This document shows, in pieces, positions 38,978 to 46,518 of a stretch of 64,000 bases of DNA (its first letter is position 1; each line of letters opens with the position of its first letter). A program made the translations under genes and the position numbers. The notes under the pieces are model-generated. The model did no database searches. It had not been told where the DNA came from and worked only from the letters and a program-made list of their open reading frames with translations. Source of the stretch: Rhodococcus triatomae (GTDB lineage: Bacteria; Actinomycetota; Actinomycetes; Mycobacteriales; Mycobacteriaceae); contig NZ_CP048814.1 of NCBI RefSeq assembly GCF_014217785.1, positions 248,001 to 312,000 of the forward strand. Reading direction: 5' to 3'.

Positions 38978-39796
38978 TCAGCGGAACTGCCGGAGAACGC
39001 CGTCGCTCACGTCCGTCCACAACGGTTTGGCCCAGTCTCCGAACGCCCGATCGGTGAGCACCACACACGACAGTTCCGCGGCCGGATCGACCCACAGGAA
39101 GGTGCCGGACTGGCCGAAGTGTCCGTACGTCCGCGGCGAGTTCTCGGTACCCGTCCAGTGCGGATGCTTCTCGGACCGGATCTCGAACGCCAGGCCCCAA
39201 TCGTTCGGCTTGTGCATGCCGTAACCGGGAAGGATGCCGGCGAGCTCCGGGAACTGCACCGACGTCGCCTCCGCGAACAATTCCGTGGACACCAGCGTGG
39301 GAGCGCACAGTTCCTTCGCGAACGCGGTCAGGTCCCGCACGCTCGCCTGCGCCCCGTGGCCCGCCGGTCCGGCGAGCGCGGCCGTCTCCATCCGCAAGGG
39401 AGCGAAGACCGCCTCGGCGAGGTAGTCGGCAAAGGCGATGCCGCTCTCCTCGGCGACGAAGTCGGCGAGAACCTCGAAACCGGCGCTCGAGTAGATCCGC
39501 TTGGTGCCCGGCGCCGTCTGGACGCGGTTCTCGTCGAACGCCAGCCCCGAGGCGTGCGCGAGCAGGTGACGCACGGTCGAGCCGGGAGGACCCGCGGGCT
39601 GGTCGAGTTCGACCGCCCCCTCCTCGATCGCGACGAGGACTGCGTATCCCACGAGCAGCTTCGTCACCGAGGCCAGGGGGTACACCCGCTCGACGTCGCC
39701 GGCCTCTTCGCGTACACCGCGGCCGGTGGACACCACCGCTCCCGCGGCGTGGTCCACCGGCCACTGGGCTATCCGTTGCAGACTGTCCACGCGCAC
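38978..39796 (-). CDS. Beta-lactamase-family serine hydrolase
   Basis: The 272-aa class C beta-lactamase-like fold has the catalytic SxxK in SVTK (Ser43/Lys46), the Tyr motif YSSAGFE, and the third motif HFGQSGTF in place of KTG. No signal peptide is seen, so the enzyme is probably a cytosolic esterase or peptidase rather than a resistance enzyme. GTG at 39796 is the start. It lies between the alcohol dehydrogenase and DUF3145 genes on the same strand; no functional link is evident. Confidence 0.85.
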   Translation of the reverse strand: MRVDSLQRIAQWPVDHAAGAVVSTGRGVREEAGDVERVYPLASVTKLLVGYAVLVAIEEGAVELDQPAGPPGSTVRHLLAHASGLAFDENRVQTAPGTKRIYSSAGFEVLADFVAEESGIAFADYLAEAVFAPLRMETAALAGPAGHGAQASVRDLTAFAKELCAPTLVSTELFAEATSVQFPELAGILPGYGMHKPNDWGLAFEIRSEKHPHWTGTENSPRTYGHFGQSGTFLWVDPAAELSCVVLTDRAFGDWAKPLWTDVSDGVLRQFR

Positions 39797-39844: not shown

Positions 39845-40972
39845 TCACCAGTCCGCCTCCGTGTAGCGCACGACGCCACGGATGTTCTTGCCGTCCAGCA
39901 TGTCCCGGTAGCCGTCGTTGACTTCTTCGAGCGAGTACGTGCGCGTGATCATGTCGTCGAGGTTGAGCTGCCCCGACTTGTAGAGCGCCAGCAGGTTGGG
40001 GATCTCGACCCGGGCACTGCAGCCACCGAAGACGTTGCCGCGAACCTCCTTCTGGAGCATCGACAACAGGAACAGGTTCAGCTTGACGTCCATGTCGCCC
40101 ATGTTGCCCATCGCGGTGACGACGCAGCGGCCGGCCTTGCTGGTCAGGGTCAGCGCCGGATCGACGTACTCGCCCTTCATCTCACCCACGGTGATGATGG
40201 TCTTGTCGGCCATCCGCCCCTGCGTGAGGTTCATGATCGGCTCGATGGCCTCGGCGACGCTCGCGAACACGTGGGTGGCGCCGAACTTCACGGCCTGATC
40301 GCGCTTGAACGCCACCGGGTCGATCGCGAACACCTCGCGCGCACCGGACGCGACCGCCCCCTGGAGGGCGCTCATCCCGACGCCACCGACCCCGATGATC
40401 GCGACGGACTCGCCCGCCTTCACCTCGGCGATGTTGGTCGCCGAACCCCATCCGGTGGGTACGCCGCATCCCACCAGCGCGGCGACCTCGAACGGGATGT
40501 CCTTGTCGATCTTCACCACCGAACTCTGGTGCACCGTCATGTACGGAGAAAACGTCCCGAGCAGGCACATCGGAATCACGTTCTCGCCGCGGGCCTGAAT
40601 CCGGTAGGTGCCGTCGGAGATCGCGAGCCCGCTGAGCAGCCCGGCCCCCAGATCGCAGAGGTTCTGATGCCCGGCGGAACAGGAAGGACATTTCCCGCAC
40701 GCGGGAATGAAGGAGAGGACGACGTGGTCGCCGACCTCGAGATCCTCCACGCCCGGGCCGATCTTCGTGACGACACCGGCCCCTTCGTGTCCGCCCATCA
40801 CGGGGAAGGACGGCATCGGCGTGGCACCGGTGACGAGGTGGTGATCGGAGTGGCACATTCCGGCCGCTTCCATCCGCAGCTGCACCTCGCCGGCGACGGG
40901 ATCACCGAGTTCGATCTCCTCCACGGACCACTGCTCGTTCAGGCCCCAAAGAATTGCACCCTTGGTCTTCAC
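39845..40972 (-). CDS. NDMA-dependent zinc alcohol dehydrogenase
   Basis: The 375-aa medium-chain dehydrogenase has catalytic zinc ligands Cys40 (AAGMCHSDHH) and His62 (GGHEGAG), and structural zinc Cys92, Cys95, Cys98 and Cys106. The Rossmann motif is GVGGVG. The segments LCDLGAGLLSGL and FSPYMTVHQSSVVKI are those of the Rxyl_3153/NDMA-dependent family. Such enzymes hold NAD tightly and rely on the peptide cofactor mycofactocin for electron transfer. GTG at 40972 is chosen. No mycofactocin genes lie in the window. Confidence 0.9.
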   Translation of the reverse strand: MKTKGAILWGLNEQWSVEEIELGDPVAGEVQLRMEAAGMCHSDHHLVTGATPMPSFPVMGGHEGAGVVTKIGPGVEDLEVGDHVVLSFIPACGKCPSCSAGHQNLCDLGAGLLSGLAISDGTYRIQARGENVIPMCLLGTFSPYMTVHQSSVVKIDKDIPFEVAALVGCGVPTGWGSATNIAEVKAGESVAIIGVGGVGMSALQGAVASGAREVFAIDPVAFKRDQAVKFGATHVFASVAEAIEPIMNLTQGRMADKTIITVGEMKGEYVDPALTLTSKAGRCVVTAMGNMGDMDVKLNLFLLSMLQKEVRGNVFGGCSARVEIPNLLALYKSGQLNLDDMITRTYSLEEVNDGYRDMLDGKNIRGVVRYTEADW

Positions 40973-41091
40973 GTCACTCCAACCCTTCATTCATGTCTAC
41001 GCATGCGTGTGACTGTGACCTTAGACACGAATGAGGAAAATTGGAACACGTTCTACATAGCGAGTTGTCTTTCGTTCGGGTCCGCCACGGT

Positions 41092-41352: not shown

Positions 41353-41610
41353 ATGGCGATCAACGACGACGACATCACCACGAGCGGACCGGCAGGCGGC
41401 GAGGGTCCGGCGGACGGCGGCTCCAACCCCGGCGGCCACGACGGCGGTGCCGACGGTGCGGCTGCGGCCGGCGAGGGCCCGGCGGACGGCGGATCGAACC
41501 CGGAGGGACACGACGGCGGCGCCGACGGCACCGCGAACCAGGGTGAGGGTCCGGCGGACGGCGGATCGAACCCGGACGGTCACGACGGCGGCGCCGACGG
41601 GACGGCGTGA
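41353..41610 (+). CDS. Small Gly/Asp-rich peptide with three 24-residue tandem repeats (candidate precursor peptide)
   Basis: The 85-aa peptide has a 15-residue leader-like start MAINDDDITTSGPAG. Three repeats begin at residues 16, 40 and 64, each of the form GEGPADGGSNPxGHDGGADG. The repeats differ only at the x position (Gly, Glu, Asp) and in the linkers. No hydrophobic core or signal peptide is present. GAGAGGA at 41341-41347 gives a good ribosome site. Directly downstream is a JmjC/Cupin_4 oxygenase gene and then an Fe-S protein gene. I infer a substrate or precursor peptide hydroxylated on repeated Asn, Asp or His residues; no function is proven. Confidence 0.8.
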   Translation: MAINDDDITTSGPAGGEGPADGGSNPGGHDGGADGAAAAGEGPADGGSNPEGHDGGADGTANQGEGPADGGSNPDGHDGGADGTA

Positions 41611-41659
41611 GCTGAACACCCCCGTCCCGCACCGGCAGCCGAGTGCGCTCGGTCGCTGC

Positions 41660-42859
41660 GTGGCGGTCGGCCGCGCCGAGTTCGCGGAGCGCCATTGGGA
41701 TCGCGCTCCCGTGCTCTCGCGTGCGGCCGACCTGCCGCGCGACTACCTCGATCTCCTCTCCCCCGACGCGATCGACGAGTTGATCGCCGAACGGGGGGTG
41801 CGTACCCCGTTTCTGCGGATGGCTCGGGACGGCACGGTTCTGGACCGTGGATGTTTCACGCGCTCGGGCGGATTCGGCGCAGAGATGCCCGACCAGATCG
41901 ACTCCGCAGGAGTGTTCACCGAGTTCTCCGCGGGTGCCACCATCGTGTTGCAGGGCCTTCACCGATTGTGGCCACCGATCATCGACTTCGTCCGCGCGCT
42001 CGTCGACGACATCGGCCATCCGGTCCAGGCGAACGCCTACGTCACGCCGCCGAGCAGCCGTGGATTCGACCCCCACTACGACACCCACGACGTCTTCGTG
42101 CTGCAGGTGGCCGGCACGAAGGAATGGGTCGTGCATCCGCCGGTGCAGGAACTGCCGCTCCCCGGCCAGCCGTGGACGGCGCACCGTTCGGGTGTCGCGG
42201 CCGCCGCACGCGTCGAACCCTTCCTGAGCGCGACACTCGAGCCGGGTGACGCGCTGTATCTGCCACGCGGCTGGATCCACTCCGCACGCGCCCGGGGCGA
42301 GACCTCCGTTCACCTGACGATCGGGGTGGCCCCGACCACTCGTCACGACGTGGTGCGCATCCTCGCCGACGCGCTCGGTGAGGACGTGGAGCTACGTCGC
42401 GCTCTCCCGTTGGGCACCGACCACACAGATGCCACGGCGGTGGCCGGCGAAATCGCCCGGACGATCGAGCTCGTCGGTCGGCGCCTCGGTCACCCGCCGG
42501 AGGAGCCGTCGCTGGTCGAATCCGTGGCCGCCGCCGTCGGCGATCGGTTCGTCGCACTCACCAGACCTGCTCCGGTCCGTCCGCTCGCCACCCTCGAGGC
42601 GATCGCGGCATTCGATGCGGGCACGACCGTGCGGTGGCGGTCGGCACTGCACGGCACTGTCACGACCTCGAGCGACGCGGTGTCGCTGGCGCTGCCGGAC
42701 CGGACGATCACCCTTCCGCCGGAGTGTGCCTCGGCTGTCGAGACGATCGCGGGCGGGGGTCGGGTCTGCGCTCGCGACCTGCCCGGGCTTTCGGTCGAGG
42801 ACGGTGTGGTCGTGCTGCGCAGGCTCCTGCGCGAGGGTGTGGTGGTACCCACAGGATGA
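41660..42859 (+). CDS. JmjC/Cupin_4-domain oxygenase
   Basis: The 399-aa protein (from GTG 41660) is a probable Fe(II)/2-oxoglutarate hydroxylase of the ribosomal-oxygenase-like Cupin_4 family. The metal triad is visible: His139 and Asp141 in FDPHYDTHD and His207 in LPRGWIHSA, with ATLEPGDALYLP between. A winged-helix-like C-terminal region follows. Family similarity (SALGRCVAVGRAEF) seems to continue upstream to 41612, where only a CTG could start, so the true N-terminus is uncertain. It follows the repeat peptide at once and overlaps the next gene (ATGA). Confidence 0.85.
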   Translation: MAVGRAEFAERHWDRAPVLSRAADLPRDYLDLLSPDAIDELIAERGVRTPFLRMARDGTVLDRGCFTRSGGFGAEMPDQIDSAGVFTEFSAGATIVLQGLHRLWPPIIDFVRALVDDIGHPVQANAYVTPPSSRGFDPHYDTHDVFVLQVAGTKEWVVHPPVQELPLPGQPWTAHRSGVAAAARVEPFLSATLEPGDALYLPRGWIHSARARGETSVHLTIGVAPTTRHDVVRILADALGEDVELRRALPLGTDHTDATAVAGEIARTIELVGRRLGHPPEEPSLVESVAAAVGDRFVALTRPAPVRPLATLEAIAAFDAGTTVRWRSALHGTVTTSSDAVSLALPDRTITLPPECASAVETIAGGGRVCARDLPGLSVEDGVVVLRRLLREGVVVPTG

Positions 42860-43794
42860 ACGATTCCGAATGGCGTCCGTGTAGCGACAACGCCCTGAGC
42901 CGAGGAGACCCACTCGCCGGGACCGGCTCGCGTGGCCTGCACTGGCTGTTGGTGGAACTGTCCGGACCATGGGGCTTCTCCGCGTTCCTGGACTCCCCGG
43001 CGACGATCGATCCGGAGATCGGCCGTGCGCTGGTACGGCGGGCCGAGTCGGCGGGTATGCGCATCGTCGGTATCCGCCGACCGGGGCGCAGGCAGGCGGA
43101 GCCGCGCTGGCGCTGGGCGATCGCCGACTCCCGACCGGGACACGAATCCCTGTACCGGGGCGAGGTTTCCGATCCGACCGAACTCCTGGACGTTCCGCTC
43201 GACGGTTCGGCGGGCACTCTGTCCCACGAGCCGATCGTCGCCGTCTGCGCCCACGGCAAGCACGACCGCTGCTGCGCCGTGCGGGGCCGATCCGCCGCGG
43301 CCGACATCGCCCGCCGCTATCCGGAGCTGACCTGGGAGTGCTCGCATCTCGGTGGCGACCGCTTCGCCGCCACGATGATTCTCCTGCCACATGGGCTCTA
43401 CTACGGCCGGGTCGATGCCGCCGACGATCCCGCGGACCTCGTACACCGGTATCTGCGGGGGAGCCTGGACGATCGCTACCTGCGCGGACGCAGCTCGCTG
43501 CCGGAGGTCGTCCAGGCCGCCCAACACCACGCGCGGGCGGTGACCGGCGAGGACCGGATCGATGCGCTCGCCCCCGTGTCCGTCACGGCGAGCGACGACG
43601 AGTACGTCGTGGTCCTGCGACACGGCGAAGGCCGAGTGGCGGTTCGGCTCGCGGAGACCCTGTCCGAGCCCATCCTGTCGACCTGCTCGGCGCGAGTTCC
43701 CGGCCGTGTCCGGCAGTTCCGCCTCGTCGCTCTCGCCGAGGACGGCACCGAAGGCATGGGGACCGGAGCCGACGGCACGGGGGAAAACGGCTGA
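42856..43794 (+). CDS. Sucrase/ferredoxin-like thioredoxin-fold Fe-S protein
   Basis: The 312-aa protein is of the Suc_Fer-like family (PF06999), related to yeast Aim32. The N-terminal signature is WRPCSDNALSRGDPLAGTG, and the 2Fe-2S-type thioredoxin domain has VCAHGKHDRCCAVRG (Cys131, Cys139, Cys140) and ECSHLGGDRFAATMI (Cys162, His164). The eukaryotic HxxxH pair is HxxxD here. ATG at 42856 overlaps the oxygenase stop by 4 bp, so both are co-translated. I infer a redox partner for the oxygenase. Confidence 0.85.
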   Translation: MNDSEWRPCSDNALSRGDPLAGTGSRGLHWLLVELSGPWGFSAFLDSPATIDPEIGRALVRRAESAGMRIVGIRRPGRRQAEPRWRWAIADSRPGHESLYRGEVSDPTELLDVPLDGSAGTLSHEPIVAVCAHGKHDRCCAVRGRSAAADIARRYPELTWECSHLGGDRFAATMILLPHGLYYGRVDAADDPADLVHRYLRGSLDDRYLRGRSSLPEVVQAAQHHARAVTGEDRIDALAPVSVTASDDEYVVVLRHGEGRVAVRLAETLSEPILSTCSARVPGRVRQFRLVALAEDGTEGMGTGADGTGENG

Positions 43795-43822: not shown

Positions 43823-44914
43823 TCAGTAGCCCGCCGAACGCAGCCCCTCTGCCAGCTTCTCGACGGCATCGACTTCGCGGATTCCGGGGTCCAGCTCGGA
43901 GCCGGTGAGGACGACGTATCGTTGACCCCGCACCGCATCCAGCTGCGCCGTCACGGGATTCGATTCGAGGAATGCGATCTTCGTGTCCAAGGCGTCACCG
44001 TCGACGCGGACGCGGCTGAGATCGCCGAGAACCAGCACATCGGGATTCCGGTCCGCGACCGCCTCCCAGTTGACCTCCGGCCAGTCGTCACGGGTGTCGG
44101 CGAAGACGTTGATCGCACCGGTCTCCGCGGCGTAGAGACCCGGTGCCGAGCAGCAACCGGCCATGTACGGCGCATCGATACCCGAGAACCAGAAGGCCAC
44201 CGTCGGTTCCTGTCCGTCGGCGCGGTCGGCACCCGCGGTCGCGGTGTCCATCCGGGATTGCAGCGACGAGACGAGTTCCGCGCCACGTTCCTGGACGTCG
44301 AAGACGGCCGCGAGTTCGCGGATCTCCCGGTAGAGCGTGTCGATGGTCAGGGGCGCGGTGCGCGAGACATTCTCTCCGTCGACATCGGCATCGGTGCACA
44401 CCGACGGGGACTGGTAGGTGGGTACGCCCAGGTCCGTGAAGGTCTCCCGGTCCGCCACCACGGAGCGGGTGAAGGTGTGCGCGCTTCCGGAGGTGACCAG
44501 ATCCGGTTCCGTGTCCAGGACGGTTTCGAGCGACGGGTCGTTGTCCGCAAGACGCGGCACCTGTTCGTTGTCGGCAGCCAGGTCCGGCAGGACGGGATCG
44601 AACCAGGTGGAGGTGCCCACCATGCGGTCGGCCAGACCGAGGGACAGCAGGATCTCGGTCGAGCTCTGATAGAGCGACACCGCCCGCTCCGGCGGCGCCT
44701 CGAAGGTGACGGTCTCGCCGCAGTTCTCCAGCGTGAGGGGGTAGGACGTCGCGGCGGGCTCGTCGGAGACGGTGGTGGGCCCCGAGGCCTCGTCGCCGAC
44801 CGATCCACACCCCGCGACGAGGAGTGCGGCGGCCGCCACGGCGATACCGGCGGCCGGGCCGCCACGGGAGAACCGCGCCGACAGACGGCGGCGAGGTGTG
44901 AGTGGACGAGGCAC
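43823..44914 (-). CDS. ABC transporter substrate-binding lipoprotein, BtuF-like
   Basis: The 363-aa class III periplasmic-binding protein has a signal with lipobox LLVAGC (Cys36). The family blocks are PERAVSLYQSSTEILLSLGLADRMVGTS and NPDVLVLGDLSR. The group binds Fe-siderophores or cobalamin. A cobalamin riboswitch lies directly upstream, so vitamin B12 or a corrinoid is the likely ligand. GTG at 44914 has AAGGACC upstream. No permease or ATPase gene adjoins it, so it must use a transporter encoded elsewhere. It converges on the Suc_Fer gene. Confidence 0.88.
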   Translation of the reverse strand: MPRPLTPRRRLSARFSRGGPAAGIAVAAAALLVAGCGSVGDEASGPTTVSDEPAATSYPLTLENCGETVTFEAPPERAVSLYQSSTEILLSLGLADRMVGTSTWFDPVLPDLAADNEQVPRLADNDPSLETVLDTEPDLVTSGSAHTFTRSVVADRETFTDLGVPTYQSPSVCTDADVDGENVSRTAPLTIDTLYREIRELAAVFDVQERGAELVSSLQSRMDTATAGADRADGQEPTVAFWFSGIDAPYMAGCCSAPGLYAAETGAINVFADTRDDWPEVNWEAVADRNPDVLVLGDLSRVRVDGDALDTKIAFLESNPVTAQLDAVRGQRYVVLTGSELDPGIREVDAVEKLAEGLRSAGY

Positions 44915-44961
44915 GGGTGGTCCTTCGATCGGGGGCCCGGTCGCGGGGCCCGATGACGCCG

Positions 44962-45100
44962 GACGGTGGCGGTGCCACCGTCTCCCGCGAGCATTCGGAC
45001 TTCGGGAGCTCCCCGTCACGCGGGAGACCCGTCACCGCTGCGCGTCAGCTCCGGATTCGCACCGGATTCCCTCGCAGGAGCGGGTCCACCCTATCGCGCG
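44962..45100 (-). promoter_or_regulatory. Cobalamin riboswitch
   Basis: On the minus strand the core GGGAATCCGGTGCGAATCC (reverse complement at 45052-45070) is followed by GCTGACGCGCAGCGGT. The B12-box-like AAGTCCGAATGCTCGC lies near 44987-45002. A GC-rich hairpin at 44962-44982 then probably acts as expression platform before the binding-protein gene at 44914. The ends are approximate. Cobalamin binding is expected to turn the downstream gene off. Confidence 0.88.
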
Positions 45101-45540: not shown

Positions 45541-46518
45541 TCAGTTCGCGGCGAAACCCGGTAGGCGCTGCGGCTCCTCGATCACCGAGAAGTGCGCCGC
45601 GTCACCCTTGCGGATCCGGCTGGACGCTCCGCGCACGTCCACGGGGACGTCACCGGCGAGCGTCGTCCGGTGGATCTTGCGCGGGTTGGTCCCGTAGTCG
45701 GAGATCCCGTAGTGCTGAGTGGCACGGTTGTCCCAGATCGCGACGTCGCCCGGCTGCCACGCCCAGCGAACGGTGTTCTCCAGCTTCGTGATCCGATTCT
45801 GCAGCAGCTGGAAGAGCGCCGTCGTCTCCGACGGCTTGAAGCCGACGAACTCCTTGACGAAGTGCCCGAGCAGCAGCGTCTTCTCGCCGGTCTCCGGATG
45901 TACCCGGACGACGGGGTGCTCGGTCTCGAAGACGGTGCGGGTGAACTCGTTCAGGTACTTCTCCCGCCTCGCGGCGTCCTGCACCTTGTCCCGGATCGTG
46001 TTCGCGACCTCGGCGTAGTCGTATTCGTTCGAGTGCACGGCCCACAGATTCTCCACCAGCGCCTTGAGCGCGTCCGGAAGCTGCTCGTAGGCCGCGGTCG
46101 TCGACGCCCAGGTGGTGGCGCCGCCGTACTCGGGGACGGTGACGGCACGCAGGATCGACGCCTTCGGGATGCGGTCGATGAAGGTGACGTCGGTGTGCCA
46201 GCTGCTCGCGGCGGCCTCGAGGACGAGGGTCTTGTTGTCGTCCGACCTCAGGGTCGGGTGCGTCGTCGTCTGCGATCCGAGGCGTCCCGCGAACGCGTAC
46301 TGGATCTCGTCGGTTAGGTGGTGCTGATCGCGGAAGAAGATCACCTTGTTCGCAGCCAACGCGTATCGGATCGCAGAGGCGGTCTCGTCGGAGATGTCGC
46401 CGGACAGGGTGATGCCGCCGATCACCGCGCCGAGGTGATGGCCGTGCTTGGCGACGGTGATTCCGCCTGCGGCATAGATGTCCTCGGCGGTGTCGGGGCG
46501 CTGTTCGAGAGTGGTCAT
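45541..46518 (-). CDS. TauD/AtsK-type Fe(II)/2-oxoglutarate dioxygenase
   Basis: The 325-aa jelly-roll dioxygenase probably releases sulfite or sulfate from taurine, alkylsulfonates or alkylsulfates. Metal ligands are His108 and Asp110 (SSWHTDVTF) and His269 ([13 protein letters not shown]); Arg280 or Arg284 should bind 2-oxoglutarate. The closest remembered type is AtsK alkylsulfatase. It is last in the five-gene operon with the ABC transporter (36-bp gap), divergent from which stands a sulfatase gene, so a sulfur-scavenging role is likely. Confidence 0.9.

Follow-up and report, generated by a model that had tools for sequence, protein, structure and literature searches.

What is a short gene for a repetitive, Asp/Gly-rich peptide doing directly upstream of a JmjC-type oxygenase gene? 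The question is raised by positions 41353 to 43794 of a 64,000-nucleotide stretch of the Rhodococcus triatomae genome (contig NZ_CP048814.1, positions 248,001 to 312,000; the genome is a single contig of 4.77 Mb). We call the whole stretch the window and use its coordinates unless another locus is named. The best overall explanation, to which we give a probability of roughly 0.6, is a pair of enzyme and precursor like those of ribosomally synthesized and post-translationally modified peptides (RiPPs), with an Asp-oxidizing JmjC_2 oxygenase and a Suc_Fer-like iron-sulfur protein as its helper. A pair of this kind is supported by the co-occurrence of the two genes, by diverged Asp/Gly-rich peptides found at distant oxygenases, by the NO66/MINA53 fold of the oxygenase and by its C-terminal domain, which resembles a RiPP recognition element (RRE). 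The features of the cassette are as follows.

41353 to 41610, plus strand: gene for the Asp/Gly repeat peptide (type A, 85 residues), the putative substrate, kept in 105 of 401 family genomes.
41353 to 41397, plus strand: acidic, leader-like N-terminus MAINDDDITTSGPAG, kept in the peptide alignment and possibly acting in recognition.
41398 to 41457, plus strand: repeat unit 1, GEGPADGGSNPGGHDGGADG, from tandem-repeat search and translation.
41470 to 41529, plus strand: repeat unit 2, GEGPADGGSNPEGHDGGADG, from the same search and translation.
41542 to 41601, plus strand: repeat unit 3, GEGPADGGSNPDGHDGGADG, likewise.
41660 to 42859, plus strand, within an open frame of 41606 to 42859: JmjC_2 (PF08007) oxygenase, profile E-value 5e-26.
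42587 to 42856, plus strand: C-terminal winged-helix, RRE-like domain of the oxygenase, from the predicted structure.
42856 to 43794, plus strand: thioredoxin-fold protein of the Suc_Fer-like type (PF06999) carrying CX8C and HX3D, the accessory partner, profile E-value 4e-15.

The original prediction described an 85-residue peptide with three 24-residue repeats, and both the translation and a tandem array at 41397 to 41607 (period 72 bp, 2.9 copies) bear this out. The peptide matches no Pfam or NCBIfam family at an E-value of 1. Of nine peptides linked to relatives, eight have no NCBIfam match and the ninth has three weak, low-complexity matches far under the cut-off. Chance repetition or a recent duplication can be ruled out, since across 69 type A genes the synonymous sites have diverged (proportion of synonymous differences, pS, 0.53) while the protein has been kept (proportion of nonsynonymous differences, pN, 0.11). 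These genes carry three HDGG copies in 55 cases, two in 12, four in one and a single copy in one, and they vary chiefly at the position that follows NP, at position three of the unit, at the Ser/Ala preceding NP and in the linkers. The window peptide shares 74–92% identity with its relatives in a 19-row alignment without the two most divergent type A sequences (L042, 70%; L046, 58%), and the oxygenase shares 49–67% in the peptide-bearing rows of its own alignment; of the two, the peptide is the better conserved. In the most diverged peptide, from Agromyces terreus (L046:4726-4980), the first repeat has degenerated and two are intact.

The two genes are found together throughout the samples. 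Within the genus, both occur in the same four of 28 genomes. In the family sample 105 genomes have the peptide and 111 match the oxygenase strongly; none of the 105 peptide-bearing genomes lacks the oxygenase. It adjoins 107 of the 108 peptide matches, the exception being a second, weak match in one genome (G030, C1:603530-603730, 44% identity, E-value 4e-5). The six genomes with an oxygenase and no peptide match comprise five with a diverged repeat peptide at that place and one cut off by a contig end; eight more have weak oxygenase matches only (below 200 bits). Among 394 genomes of the class, the peptide profile gave 31 matches in 29 genomes, all adjoining a strong oxygenase match. The proposal that the repeat peptide is the substrate of the oxygenase thus came through the co-occurrence check, and a gene-encoded precursor adjoining its enzyme and conserved with it, as in RiPP pairs, is what these counts describe. 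Because of the pS/pN contrast and the conservation of the gene pair across two orders, Micrococcales being the second, the pair is real, strongly conserved and more than a chance association. The peptide is very probably a dedicated substrate of the downstream oxygenase.

When named genomes were scanned, 12 oxygenase loci emerged, ten with the peptide directly upstream, in genera that include Agromyces, Microbacterium, Brachybacterium, Glaciibacter and Nesterenkonia. Of the named matches to the window oxygenase, the best, at 67% identity, comes from a Rhodococcus sp. (L041). The two loci lacking the peptide are L051 (Dactylosporangium) and L052, a metagenome-assembled genome in which a GDSDAG(EG)-repeat protein (L052:4424-4996) lies directly upstream of a JmjC_2 gene; from this case, the pairing of peptide and JmjC_2 enzyme may reach past actinobacteria. 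Carriage as plasmid or viral cargo was rejected: the plasmids gave no peptide match and distant oxygenases only (48 records, each below 60% identity), and the viral contigs likewise held distant oxygenases only (seven loci, identity up to 32%).

To place the type A peptide in a wider family, the sequence upstream of 117 JmjC_2 loci was read, 90 of them scoring at least 200 bits and 27 below, and the peptide was taken as the frame with the stretch richest in Gly, Asp, Asn, His, Ser and Glu, a choice biased towards such peptides. As a check on this selection, the same reading of the 27 weaker loci yielded nine peptides of type E and two short DGSDG peptides (L176 and L178), and inspection by eye showed nothing similar at the other 16. 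The 82 linked peptides counted below are those of the 90 stronger loci minus the window itself (L093), L045 (the same as L098), L054 (at a contig end), four loci without such a peptide (L051, L155, L157 and L158) and L094, which stands outside the set though its peptide is of type A. Type B peptides follow the pattern EGPADGGA..PG.HDGGADGGA, type C consists of GGAD runs and type D of Asp/Thr/Gly repeats. Type E is a single copy ending in GGDSDGTDSSSDFI or a near variant, at nine loci of one other family, which we take to be Streptomyces-like. On the oxygenase tree, which was built quickly, has several long branches and lacks ten of the 117 loci (L093, L094, L045, L054 and six partial matches), type A lies within one clade of 25 rows with 100% support in the Shimodaira–Hasegawa-like approximate likelihood ratio test, plus two hybrid cases elsewhere. 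Across all peptide types the tree requires 20 label changes, against a mean of 63.4 for shuffled labels.

At each of the nine type E loci (L159, L160, L163, L167-L170, L172 and L180) a large gene lies upstream in the same orientation, and these genes belong to one family; by eye the product resembles an S9 prolyl oligopeptidase, which might serve as a processing protease. A Streptomyces clavuligerus plasmid encodes a 48-residue Asp-Pro-rich peptide (L221:2760-2906) just upstream of a distant cupin/JmjC_2 gene, which is followed on the other strand by an S9 peptidase assigned by Pfam. Two further distant JmjC_2 genes (L067 and L165) are preceded by what by eye appear to be an ATP-grasp enzyme and a TfuA-like protein, which are other RiPP-like contexts.

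The composition of the linked peptides bears on which residue would be modified. Asp occurs in all 82 and Asp-Gly in 81; Asn is missing from 52, His from 20 and both from 17, and no peptide contains Cys. Of the Asn, Asp and His originally put forward as targets, Asp holds up and the other two do not serve as general targets, so that Asp hydroxylation, given its presence in every peptide, is the best guess. For Asp as the modified residue, composition suggests about even odds. FIH, a JmjC enzyme that hydroxylates Asp within repeats, provides a precedent (PMC4543633). That the same enzyme instead hydroxylates the His or Asn of each repeat is unlikely. Both residues are near-invariant in type A peptides, and NO66, the closest fold relative, is a histidyl hydroxylase; however, beyond the absences just counted, some type B peptides (for example L134 and L131) have Gln or Ser at the His position. 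Hydroxylation of His or Asn could be limited to type A.

A further alternative keeps the pair and changes the chemistry, with 2-oxoglutarate driving crosslinking, desaturation, epimerization or cleavage of the Asp-Gly backbone. The near-universal Asp-Gly step is chemically labile. The title of one 2025 paper also announces 2-oxoglutarate-dependent macrocyclization in RiPPs (10.1021/jacs.5c07332). We nevertheless regard a different reaction as improbable, as the characterized JmjC_2 relatives NO66, MINA53 and ycfD, and the JmjC RiPP enzyme BipG, are described as hydroxylases.

The oxygenase was predicted to have an intact HxD...H triad, and this was confirmed: the PF08007 (JmjC_2/ROX) profile match is above its cut-off, and the triad codons (His at 42074-42076, Asp at 42080-42082 and His at 42278-42280) specify residues that are invariant in a 79-row alignment. 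The predicted structure adopts the NO66/MINA53 fold with the full ribosomal oxygenase (ROX) architecture, including the C-terminal winged helix, which resembles RREs in structure at weak Foldseek E-values of 0.02 to 0.4. NO66, MINA53 and YcfD/RoxA share the Pfam family, the triad and this full-chain architecture; they modify ribosomal proteins, whereas the gene described here accompanies a repeat peptide and has a patchy distribution. The nearest standard in-frame start past the peptide gene is the GTG at 41660, 50 nt downstream. A start there would remove a short N-terminal segment retained in relatives, and the true start may lie upstream of it.

The Suc_Fer-like gene follows as predicted, with a 4-bp overlap between its ATG and the stop of the oxygenase gene. 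The idea of a coupled unit of three genes survives for the peptide and the oxygenase; the Suc_Fer gene is a frequent partner, downstream on the same strand at 64 of 77 strong loci, and three genomes that carry the pair (G021, G032 and G490) have no PF06999 match anywhere at an E-value of 0.001. In common with the thioredoxin-like ferredoxins (Aim32/Apd1, Suc_Fer), the window protein has a PF06999 match above the cut-off and CX8C. Aim32-type proteins are described with a bis-histidinyl HX3H (PMC8482512), whereas the window protein and all 61 neighbour proteins read at oxygenase loci have HX3D. Thirty PF06999 matches elsewhere in the genomes of relatives show HX3H in 22 cases and HX3D in seven, with one unread. 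At six of the nine type E loci there is instead a downstream gene cluster, of which the member tested has an FhuF [2Fe-2S] C-terminal domain. Since these are iron-sulfur helpers of two unrelated kinds, a redox role is at most hinted at. We put a helper function for the Suc_Fer protein somewhat below even odds.

In the mechanism we propose, the C-terminal RRE-like domain would probably grip the peptide, in type A through the acidic N-terminus MxIxDDDITT, and the oxygenase would use Fe(II), 2-oxoglutarate and O2 to oxidize the repeats one by one. The likeliest reaction would be Asp beta-hydroxylation within the DGG/DG motifs. It would leave an acidic chain carrying regularly spaced hydroxy-Asp that might bind metal, a property of the modified chain that we consider doubtful. 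The Suc_Fer protein would be the helper, perhaps holding the oxygenase iron in its reduced state.

Several points weigh against an RRE-guided, Asp-oxidizing pair. Co-inheritance of neighbouring genes would also make peptide types track the oxygenase tree, and would account for much of that signal. The RRE likeness rests on the Foldseek matches given above, a sequence search of 42 C-terminal domains with the PqqD profile (PF05402) gave no match, and NO66 and MINA53, which are not RiPP enzymes, have the same kind of domain, so that the RRE-like fold may merely be inherited. By a loose pattern the acidic N-terminal motif is present in 59 of the 82 linked peptides, several of these looking spurious (such as DETR in L110 and DESSTG in L151), and missing from 23, of which 15 are type B. 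Both oxygenase and peptide are net acidic. The flanks of the main cassette (1.5–3.5 kb) hold no recurring protease or exporter. Finally, the genome has no PF08007 match other than this oxygenase, which leaves room for a ribosomal substrate.

This last point, together with the similarity to ribosomal oxygenases over the whole chain, favours a view in which the enzyme acts on a ribosomal or other protein and the peptide is its regulator, iron donor or inhibitor; the acidic repeats could bind metal. We think this quite improbable, and the least likely of the alternatives considered. A ribosome modifier would not usually be distributed so patchily (a strong match in 111 of 401 family genomes), the peptide is better conserved than the enzyme, and the occurrence of one unit in multiple copies points to a repeated substrate.

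The surroundings of the cassette were also inspected. In short flanks at the 117 loci there is no widely shared neighbour family besides Suc_Fer, the neighbours not having been scanned individually for multinuclear non-heme iron-dependent oxidative enzymes (MNIOs) or B12-dependent radical S-adenosylmethionine (SAM) enzymes. An upstream metal-regulator site was rejected, as nothing resembling an IdeR, Zur or Fur site pattern occurred in 57 upstream stretches; their commonest 10-mers are barely above shuffled sequence, and some resemble Shine–Dalgarno sites. In the window, a Peripla_BP_2 (siderophore-type) binding protein gene (43823-45019, minus strand) lies directly past the cassette and is convergent with it. 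Other minus-strand neighbours encode a beta-lactamase-fold serine hydrolase (38978-39796), a zinc-type alcohol dehydrogenase (39845-40990) and a TauD-family dioxygenase (45541-46518).

Hydroxylation by JmjC enzymes is already known in RiPPs from biphenomycin, where BipG/PbsQ, a JmjC or cupin-like hydroxylase, acts on a ribosomal precursor peptide as proposed here (PMC12707348, PMC12257519). That enzyme targets ornithine within an aromatic core and is accompanied by MNIO and B12-radical-SAM enzymes, whereas the present Asp/Gly repeats are nearly without aromatics. Bregman et al. 2025 describe PF08007 proteins with fused RRE-like domains, as in this oxygenase, and bacterial homologues in RiPP-like contexts (PMC12710340); the passage on these proteins gives cases from fish and algae, with no nearby precursor reported and this peptide family unmentioned. 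FIH hydroxylates Asn, Asp or His in ankyrin repeats, and differs from this pair in being an animal enzyme that acts on folded repeat domains with no gene pairing (PMC4543633). Searches of open-access literature, which leaves out most subscription journals, returned no text dealing with this peptide family, and term searches of a review on aspartimide in RiPPs (PMC13001092) found neither JmjC nor hydroxylation mentioned. The peptide system is apparently undescribed so far.

A broader proposal, possible although we hold the odds to be against it, is an unreported, actinobacteria-wide peptide class in which an RRE-bearing JmjC oxygenase would processively beta-hydroxylate tandem Asp-Gly repeats into a metal-binding poly(hydroxy-Asp) chain, with unrelated [2Fe-2S] helpers recruited lineage by lineage (Suc_Fer, or the FhuF type in six of nine type E loci). 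If the proposed pairing is correct, it would add a widespread class of peptide modification whose substrates have regular Asp-Gly repeats, and the EGPADGG..HDGGADG, poly-GGAD and DGTD types would form a natural series of enzymes and substrates for studies of how JmjC enzymes choose their residue. It would also become possible to test whether, as suggested in 2025, the RRE-like domains of PF08007 proteins are functional, and this bears on the kinship between NO66-like ribosomal oxygenases and peptide-tailoring enzymes.
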